From Planctomycetota bacterium (GTDB lineage Bacteria; Planctomycetota; Planctomycetia; Planctomycetales; Planctomycetaceae): a stretch of 46,440 bases of DNA. Below the pieces are notes generated by a model that made no database searches, was not told where the DNA came from, and saw nothing but the letters and a program-made list of their open reading frames with translations. The stretch covers positions 1 through 46,440 of the forward strand of contig JAQBWV010000019.1 in the NCBI GenBank assembly GCA_027624335.1, written 5' to 3'. A program made the position numbers and the translations under genes. Positions 34,503 to 36,491 of this stretch are shown piece by piece (position 1 is the first letter of the stretch; each line of letters opens with the position of its first letter).

Positions 34503-36491
34503 ATGTGTCCTCTGGAGAGCTCAATCAGCGTGCCCGTTTCTCGAACTGAACTCGTCGTCGCATTGGCCATTACGATCGTCGGCTTCGCTGCGCGGTTCGC
34601 GTTGCTGGACCAACTGGCGATCGAGCACTTCGACGAGGGCGTCTACGCATCGAACCTCTGGTTCCCGGACGAGGGCTTTCAGTATCCGGACCGCTTTCTG
34701 TATGCGCCGCCACTCGTGCCGAGTCTGATCGAATGGTCGATGCTCCTTTTCATTCCCGCTCGGTGGGCCGCGTTTCTGCCGTCGCTCATCCTGGGAAGCC
34801 TGACCGTGCCGCTTGCCTGGTGGTCGTTGCGTCGCTGGTCGAACGGACCAGCCGGCATCGCGGCGGCGGCTCTTGTCGCGCTGAGCGACTTTCACATCGC
34901 GATGAGTCGTTCCGCACTGACCGATGCTCCGCTGGTGTTTTTCCTGTTGCTGGCCGTCTGGCTGACGATCGAGTCGCTTTCGAAGAGCGATCTCCGGCTG
35001 GCCGCGATGGCAGGCTTCGCCACGGGTCTGGCATGGGCAACGAAGTACAACGGCTGGCTTCCCATCGCGATTGCACTGAGCGGAGCCATCGTGGCCTGGC
35101 TGTTGCAACCTCGCATCAACAGACAGCCAGAAATTGAAACGCGGCGGGACCCGGACAAAGACAGCACTCGGCTTTCATCGATCCTTTTGTGCCTGGCGGT
35201 TCTTATCCTGGCTGCGGCTGCAATCTGGTCGCCGGTGTGGTGGGATCTGCAGCCGACCGGCGGTTACTCGCGTGTTGCTGATAACCATCAGAACTACGTG
35301 ACAGGCTTCGCCGAATGGTGGCCGGCTGCAGTGCGGCACGAAGTCGTGCAACGTCATTATGCCGGATGGCCAACGTTACTTTCCGGCTGGCTGGCCGTCG
35401 CTGCGGCCGCCTTCGTTTTACGTGTGGAACGTTCCACGTGGAACGACCTGGCGTCCGTCGTCAACCTGTCAACCTTTGGAGACGCAGCTCGTTCCACAGC
35501 CTCGGTCACAACCGCAGACCGTTCCACGTGGAACGATCCCAGGTTCCTGAAGTCAGCCGCGATTGCCGGTGCGCTGGCGGGGGCGGTTGTGTTGAGTCCG
35601 CTCATGGCACTTGGCATCTGGTCGCTGACGGAACTGGTTGCGTCGGCGGTCACATTACGCCGGAACGGGATGCGGCGTTTGCGAGACTCGCAACAGGATG
35701 AACGCTCCGTGAAATCGCATCCACAGGCAACCGCAACGTCCACCGACGCGCGCCGCTGGTTCGGATTGTGGTTGCACCTGGCCTGGCTCTGTGGACTCAT
35801 TCTGGCAACTCCTCTTTATCGCCCGTATCCAAGACTCATCCTCCCGCTGTTGTGCGTCGGCTGGCTGGCGACTGGAATTGCGATCGTCCGGTTACTTCGT
35901 GGCAGTCTCGTTTCCGGTAAGTCGGATGGTCGCTCAACTGGAAAGTCGACGGTGGATGCCGGTCATCCCTGGCAACGTCTGAGATTTATCTGGCTGGTGC
36001 CAGTTGTCTTTCTATGCGTCTGGCACGCAGTCACTCATCGTGCTGGAGCCTGGCAGGAACGTTCGGCACTTGCTGTCATCGCCGAGCAGGCGATCGCCAC
36101 AGCAGCGGCCAGTTGTAAAGATGAACCTGAACCGAATTCGAACATCAACCCGCACGCGAGCATTGACTTCGTGATGTACGTCTACGGAGAGCCCGGCCTG
36201 TTCTTCCATATCCCACGCGACGGAGTGCCAGTTCAGCCGGTCACTGATTTGAACTTCGCAAAGCGAGGATCGACGCACACTCGAGTGCCGACCTTCGTCC
36301 TGGCTGGTCCTCATGCCTGGAAGAGTCCGCAGTTCGGTACTCAGTTTCGGGAAGTGGAAGAGACGCTGACTCTGGTCGCGGTGTTTCCCTACGAGCTGAG
36401 CGATTTCGTCCTGCTCGATGACTACGCACCGAGACTCCTTTCCCGCCATCGCAAAGACGACGTGCGACTGTTCCGAGTCCGCTTCGAATAA
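34503..36491 (+). CDS. GT-C membrane glycosyltransferase (PMT/ArnT-like) carrying parS sites in its coding sequence
   Basis: A 662-aa polytopic protein with about ten membrane helices. The first periplasmic loop has the acidic motif of lipid-linked sugar transferases, EHFDEGVYASNLWFPDE (D44, E45). Next come FHIAMSRSALTDAPLVFFL and WATKYNGWLP, both PMT/ArnT hallmarks. It should move a sugar from a polyprenyl-phosphate donor on the outer face of the inner membrane; the acceptor is unknown. Residues about 305-350 form a polar insert with repeated RSTWND (R310, R340) and RSTA (R330). The DNA of these repeats makes the two parS-type palindromes. The start is ATG 34503, because an earlier ATG (34404) overlaps the divergent gene; the ribosome site is weak. 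Confidence 0.88.
   Translation: MCPLESSISVPVSRTELVVALAITIVGFAARFALLDQLAIEHFDEGVYASNLWFPDEGFQYPDRFLYAPPLVPSLIEWSMLLFIPARWAAFLPSLILGSLTVPLAWWSLRRWSNGPAGIAAAALVALSDFHIAMSRSALTDAPLVFFLLLAVWLTIESLSKSDLRLAAMAGFATGLAWATKYNGWLPIAIALSGAIVAWLLQPRINRQPEIETRRDPDKDSTRLSSILLCLAVLILAAAAIWSPVWWDLQPTGGYSRVADNHQNYVTGFAEWWPAAVRHEVVQRHYAGWPTLLSGWLAVAAAAFVLRVERSTWNDLASVVNLSTFGDAARSTASVTTADRSTWNDPRFLKSAAIAGALAGAVVLSPLMALGIWSLTELVASAVTLRRNGMRRLRDSQQDERSVKSHPQATATSTDARRWFGLWLHLAWLCGLILATPLYRPYPRLILPLLCVGWLATGIAIVRLLRGSLVSGKSDGRSTGKSTVDAGHPWQRLRFIWLVPVVFLCVWHAVTHRAGAWQERSALAVIAEQAIATAAASCKDEPEPNSNINPHASIDFVMYVYGEPGLFFHIPRDGVPVQPVTDLNFAKRGSTHTRVPTFVLAGPHAWKSPQFGTQFREVEETLTLVAVFPYELSDFVLLDDYAPRLLSRHRKDDVRLFRVRFE
35430..35445. 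promoter_or_regulatory. parS: parS-type ParB-binding site 1
   Basis: CGTTCCACGTGGAACG, a perfect 16-bp palindrome. The GTTCCACGTGGAAC core is the known parS core of Pseudomonas-type chromosomes and is close to the Bacillus site. A parB gene starts about 1.36 kb downstream. It is directly preceded by a further GTGGAAC half site (35424-35430), so three half sites alternate in direction. Confidence 0.85.
35490..35497. promoter_or_regulatory. parS half site
   Basis: CGTTCCAC matches one half of the two full sites and is in the same reading frame, 60 bp after site 1 and 30 bp before site 2. The other half has diverged (AGCC). It may be a decayed third site. Confidence 0.45.
35520..35535. promoter_or_regulatory. 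parS: parS-type ParB-binding site 2
   Basis: A second copy of CGTTCCACGTGGAACG, identical over all 16 bp, exactly 90 bp after site 1 and in the same codon frame (Arg-Ser-Thr-Trp-Asn). Confidence 0.85.

Follow-up and report, generated by a model that had tools for sequence, protein, structure and literature searches.

The DNA analysed here (the window, 46,440 nucleotides from a member of the Planctomycetota) carries a glycosyltransferase gene followed by parB, and two identical palindromes accompanied by half sites are located inside the coding sequence of the glycosyltransferase (Table 1). The AlphaFold2 model of the glycosyltransferase (mean pLDDT 78.8) matches the structures of ArnT (5f15, E 3.8e-6), OST, PMT and PglB, and on the strength of the model and the Pfam matches we conclude that the product of the host gene has a GT-C fold. 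The model places the predicted loop (residues 304–331) between the helices 280–307 and 337–355, where it extends from one palindrome to the other.

Table 1. Genes and sequence features at the locus, in positions of the window
Feature	Position	Strand	Remarks
GT-C glycosyltransferase gene (ArnT/PMT/STT3 type), host of the sites	34503–36491 (start 34503 or 34530)	+	Pfam PMT_2, PMT, STT3
Half site GTTCCAC	35424–35430	-	Overlaps the first base of parS-A, giving GTGGAACGTTCCACGTGGAACG
Predicted parS-A, CGTTCCACGTGGAACG	35430–35445 (core 35431–35444)	.	Exact match; spells R-S-T-W-N
Codons of predicted disordered loop, residues 304–331	35439–35522	+	pLDDT <50
Half site GTTCCAC	35491–35497	+	Between the palindromes, same frame (RST-ASV)
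Predicted parS-B, 16-mer identical to parS-A	35520–35535	.	90 bp downstream of parS-A, same frame
parB, 314 aa	36808–37752	+	Pfam ParB_N, HTH_ParB, ParB_C

Both copies of CGTTCCACGTGGAACG occur without mismatch in one codon frame of the GT-C open reading frame, where they coincide with residues 301–305 and 331–335 (numbered from the GTG at 34530); RSTWND is encoded at both places, and the stretch in between is polar. The GTGGAACG run-up to the first site is also found in the congeners G002, G003 and G005. These three have three full sites each, and for this reason the half site between the palindromes of the window is plausibly a middle copy that has decayed. Of all matches to the heptamer GTTCCAC/GTGGAAC in the window, 6 of 11 fall within 111 bp (35424–35534). 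The 16-mer itself, at up to three mismatches, is matched three times in the window against 0.38 expected, a count reached in one of 100 shuffles. Two identical palindromes 90 bp apart, in the same frame and with half sites, had been described in the original prediction, and the exact coordinates confirm this, as they do the placing of parB about 1.3 kb away (its start lies 1,273 bp, or 1.27 kb, past the second site).

In sequence, GTTCCACGTGGAAC fits GTTYCACGTGRAAC without mismatch, and in each arm a single transition separates it from the idealised GTTTCACGTGAAAC; the parS consensus is given as TGTTTCAC-GTGAAACA (PMC7383237). The exact 14-bp core is found at just the two places of the window in the whole assembly (7,080,254 bp in 481 contigs, 93% complete), both less than 1.4 kb from parB, and with one mismatch it has four further places. 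A 16-mer that was common and scattered over the genome had been named beforehand as the outcome that would tell against parS; the genome search at up to two mismatches located 43 places, compared with 10 for the reversed control pattern, and left the proposal standing. We note that two of the palindromes with one mismatch, TGTTCCAGGTGGAACA and TGTTCCAGGTGGAACC at contigs C122:8572 and C179:3018 (L003, L004), may be weak sites or may be due to chance.

The residues of ParB that are expected to read the site point the same way. At the four contact places, the window ParB has R174, M180, E185 and G202 (mapping by eye), of which R174 and G202 are invariant in all 16 aligned ParBs, that of the window included, and occupy the places of R173 and G201 of the Caulobacter protein (again mapped by eye). 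In ParBs of the parS type, R173 and G201 (numbered as in Caulobacter) are reported to be retained, whereas Noc carries QKKR (PMC7383237). Judged by these residues, the window protein is of the parS type (R and G of the RXXG code) and is not a Noc with QKKR. Noc is a ParB relative that binds a similar 16-bp palindrome, and a Noc-binding site (NBS) was considered for the palindromes; it is ruled out, as both the sequence and the contact residues differ, the NBS being TATTTCCC-GGGAAATA and its protein carrying QKKR (PMC7383237), where the window ParB has R and G. There is no parA beside parB in the window genome. The best ParA candidate, a strong PF13614 match (E 1.6e-55) on contig C63, is encoded on another contig than parB and is a putative partner. 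Based on the match to the consensus, the genomic rarity of the site with its clustering near the par genes, and the parS-type ParB, we consider it very probable that the palindromes are parS centromere sites within the GT-C coding sequence and are the predicted targets of ParB. In such a scheme, the ParB encoded 1.3 kb downstream would load on the palindromes and spread from them, and ParB and ParA together would part the replicated chromosome regions.

The site is widespread in the family. Exact GTTYCACGTGRAAC is present in 147 of the 170 family genomes (own genome included) and in 53 of the 58 genera, and was not found in 23 of the 170; the reversed control matched in 12 of the 170 (by our own count). 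With the neighbourhood of parB set to begin 3.5 kb before its start and to end 1.5 kb after it, an exact site occurs in 27 of 58 such neighbourhoods (57 relatives and the window); family members account for 18 of these, out of 36 examined, and other families of the class for 9 out of 22 (G024 gave no ParB match in the search of the relatives). Several of the neighbourhoods from other families carry the site with no glycosyltransferase found nearby. The proposal of a parS core at this locus is supported by the sequence, by its rarity and clustering in the genome, by the adjacent parS-type parB and by this conservation throughout the family.

Within the family, the association of the site is with the glycosyltransferase gene. 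A match to the latter (E 1e-20 or better) was obtained in 150 of the 170 genomes, and 135 of these, from 42 genera, were analysed with the open reading frame (ORF) taken from stop to stop (the GT region of the other 15 was left out). An exact site is located at most 1.5 kb from the ORF in 106 of the 135 and inside it in 59 (in two of these 59, the sites are solely upstream of the catalytic anchor); the other 29 of the 135 have none in this range. Around the gene, the same palindrome is found also outside genes and in other frames. Separately, in 29 genomes the examined GT locus carries a site and lacks parB. A search of 24 of them located parB in 23: in 22 it is on a different contig from the GT, and in G068, a complete genome, it lies about 563 kb away; another contig is not a proven distance, and the GT is flanked on both sides by at least 10 kb of contig in 10 of the 22. 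In these 23 genomes, 63 of the 64 exact sites fall within the examined GT locus. Among the 20 complete genomes that have the site, 13 have all of their sites no more than 5 kb from the GT, G119 has two of three sites at about 4 kb and one at 13 kb, five (G006, G009, G018, G120 and G121) have sites far from the GT, and G023 has the site and no GT match. The sites follow the glycosyltransferase gene rather than parB, and the link is not universal.

The fidelity of the sites to the gene when parB is elsewhere, and the many relatives in which sites are found just 5′ of the GT or just past its stop, would also fit palindromes that serve as operators, by which ParB or some other regulator would control the GT (or parB), with no part in segregation as a centromere. 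We regard this as unlikely on the following grounds: the sequence is the general parS consensus, clusters occur upstream of parB with no GT found near (e.g. G038, G040, G043, G047, G049, G056 and G057), and, unlike the operator of a promoter, the sites vary in number and place, with intragenic and 3′ places common. We also observe that the parS start is fixed at +19 past the GT stop in all 16 GT loci of genus g53 (e.g. L277), and that in genus g71 (e.g. L308) it lies at +12 in nine of ten loci and at +11 in the tenth.

The position of the site within the coding sequence was evaluated by scanning the central 100 codons of the GT in the 135 genes for the best match in each frame (for G004, G030, G116, G129 and G160, which have no anchor motif, the whole ORF was scanned instead). 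In frame 1, the best match is exact in 54 genes, has one mismatch in 16, two in none and three or more in 65. Frames 0 and 2 are at background, with two exceptions, both in frame 0 (G095, exact; G116, one mismatch). The in-frame site reads (R/G/S)(S/F)TWN, and in the 52 genes with the anchor its first copy starts 251–287 residues past the HFDEG-type motif. The 63 central copies of the anchored genes (G004 and G129 stand outside this count) all have the right arm GTGGAAC, whereas elsewhere in these loci GTGGAAC occurs 71 times and GTGAAAC 127 times. This arm is forced to GTGGAAC because GTGAAAC would give an in-frame TGA stop. The left arm has TCC (Ser) in 40 copies and TTC (Phe) in 23, and the exchange of Ser for Phe is large for the protein but neutral for the parS consensus.

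The recurrence of the peptide in a single region of 70 of the 135 GT genes could also mean that (R/G)(S/F)TWN has a function as a motif in the GT-C enzyme, with the palindrome as its by-product. In keeping with this, 12 genomes keep the peptide although a synonymous change has broken the exact palindrome: the 16 genes with one mismatch comprise AAC to AAT (8), ACG to ACA (4), these 12 being synonymous, TGG to GGG (3) and AAC to ACC (1). However, the other 65 orthologues are without the motif, the loop in which it is found has pLDDT <50, the palindrome also occurs outside genes and in other frames near the GT, and Ser and Phe interchange exactly where parS is degenerate; throughout the 70 genes, the first codon (R/G/S) and the S/F codon are those of parS. 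Calculated from the codon use of these genes, the parS core would be spelled by chance in 0.8% of cases for RSTWN, 2.1% for RFTWN, 0.8% for GSTWN and 2.2% for GFTWN (0.8–2.2% per motif), yet in 18 of the 21 genera that have the motif each member with the motif has the exact site; the genes and genera are related, and these counts and chances are not independent trials. We conclude that a protein motif is a very unlikely origin of the palindrome, and that selection on the DNA, acting within a permissive loop, is the most likely reason, judging from these sequences, for the keeping of the sites. The constraint on the DNA is not absolute because 65 of the 135 genes have no central site and 12 are off by one synonymous base. 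In a tree of 49 GTs from the family, limited to one per genus and state, at least 14 changes of the exact state are needed, a number that points to repeated loss, repeated gain or both.

Two or three central copies in frame are confined, among the 135 genes, to the genera g1, g7, g27 and g64, which form one well-supported clade that includes the window and require two changes on the tree. The spacings of the copies (42, 78, 81, 90 and 114 bp) are all multiples of three, as in-frame duplication would give, and a recent tandem duplication of the DNA could in principle have copied the site and left a pair that has no function of its own. In the window, the 30-bp flanks of parS-A and parS-B are alike at 13/30 and 8/30 positions, where random pairs, drawn from codon-phased stretches of the window gene, give 8.2 ± 2.7 (95th percentile 13); between the two window copies, the 16-mer alone is clearly conserved. 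Over all within-gene comparisons, 3–18 of 30 flanking positions are alike, mostly at the random level (mean 8.2, 95th percentile 13), with the left flanks of three pairs above the random 95th percentile and the highest value, 18/30, in G003. The 16-mer across the multiplied copies is identical or differs just at the outermost bases. Flanks at background around an identical 16-mer, together with the single sites that are widespread in the same GT region, make a functionless recent duplication most improbable. The original prediction held that the RSTWND repeat was shaped by the DNA site, and the evidence from codons, frame and flanks supports selection on the DNA as the shaping force.

A check had further been proposed of whether the insert is found only where the palindromes are. 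In the 96 of 135 genes in which the anchor-to-anchor span was measured, the median is 140 with no copy (n = 52), 153 with one (n = 37), 159 with two (n = 3) and 212.5 with three (n = 4), and at genus level the span correlates with copy number (Spearman 0.40, p 0.02). Taken whole, the insert is only partly tied to the palindromes: the loop is longer in the genes with three copies, but genes with no copy and those with one are not clearly distinct (p 0.07).

Taken as a whole, the comparison leads us to suggest, as a reading that is somewhat more probable than its opposite, that the family has a centromere carried by a protein-coding gene: parS sites selected as DNA are held in one frame of the GT, have followed the GT and not parB through rearrangements and have been amplified in frame, by which the enzyme has gained a loop that serves the chromosome and not the protein. 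In our main explanation, selection on the DNA would have kept the site in the GT gene, where a loop allows the protein to tolerate it, and the clade of the window would have gained its extra copies in frame, so that part of the enzyme would be a by-product of the centromere.

The sites resemble the chromosomal parS of Pseudomonas aeruginosa, Caulobacter and Bacillus in being 16-bp palindromes around GTTYCACGTGRAAC that are clustered near parB. Intragenic parS is already known, and in P. aeruginosa nine of ten parS are described as most likely within coding sequences (PMC4368675). Unlike the known parS, however, the sites described here keep to a single codon frame within the same region of a single host gene across 21 genera (exact or with one mismatch), stay at the GT when parB is elsewhere and have multiplied in frame in one clade. 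As far as the literature was searched, what is new is a centromere site that keeps its frame and its region in a single gene across the family, stays with that gene and not with parB and is amplified in frame; in a search mainly of openly accessible literature, we found no paper on a chromosomal parS of planctomycetes and none in which a parS is conserved inside the same gene in several genera. There is also a likeness to the half-parS of P. aeruginosa, GTTCCAC heptamers that are reported to be bound by ParB (PMC10419367), in that six such heptamers are present at 35424–35534 of the window and could be bound in the same way. According to the same report, half-site binding was not observed in B. 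subtilis and was relatively weak in Caulobacter (PMC10419367). Planctomycetes are described as lacking FtsZ and dividing by budding (PMC4910669, PMC4990742). With likely centromere sites now named in well over 100 planctomycete genomes, the use of parS by their chromosomes becomes testable. The gene is also a natural example of one stretch of DNA that serves two codes, being both a protein-binding palindrome and part of a reading frame, and the signs of such a double code (a forced right arm, a free left arm and in-frame spacing) can be searched for elsewhere.

The suggestion that the locus is near oriC was not confirmed. In the fragmented own genome, dnaA is on another contig than parS. Among the 20 complete relatives with the site, dnaA is about 1.6–3.6 Mb from parS in 17 and 0.10–0.24 Mb away in G006, G120 and G121. 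In favour of the suggestion, the sampled GC skew of G080 puts the likely origin at 4.1–4.4 Mb, and the parS of this genome is at 4.61 Mb (permutation p 0.01); against it, that of G118 puts the best origin at about 0.7–1.0 Mb, with parS at 5.5 Mb and nearer the opposite switch (p 0.02); G068 gave no signal in the sampled 0.97–5.67 Mb of its 8.92 Mb. A GC-skew switch at 34–38 kb of the window was considered as evidence for oriC and dropped, since it was not reproduced next to the parS of relatives (6 of 12) or at the third codon positions of the window genes. We note that in 21 of the 22 complete family genomes searched, there is either a second match of the DnaA family or a match elsewhere that exceeds the cut-off. 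For 16 of the 22 (e.g. G076, G077 and G118), the record opens (within the first 1.1 kb) with a short DnaA-like gene that stays under the cut-off of the family and not with the full-length dnaA, and for this reason the start of a record is a poor marker of the origin.

Some genomes have unusually many sites. The family members G101, G104, G116 and G117 have 9–16 exact sites genome-wide, compared with the usual 1–5, and, in another family of the class, G056 and G038 have 48 and 24 exact GTTCCACGTGGAAC sites, mostly spread out. In G056, the 20 dispersed copies that were compared (L127–L146) have in common about 60 bp of consensus surrounding the core (near TGTCNANTTTTGGCGAANTGTTCCACGTGGAACGTCGGCGANNGTTAGAATGTCG), which is an imperfect dyad, and they form a dispersed repeat family carrying a parS core.
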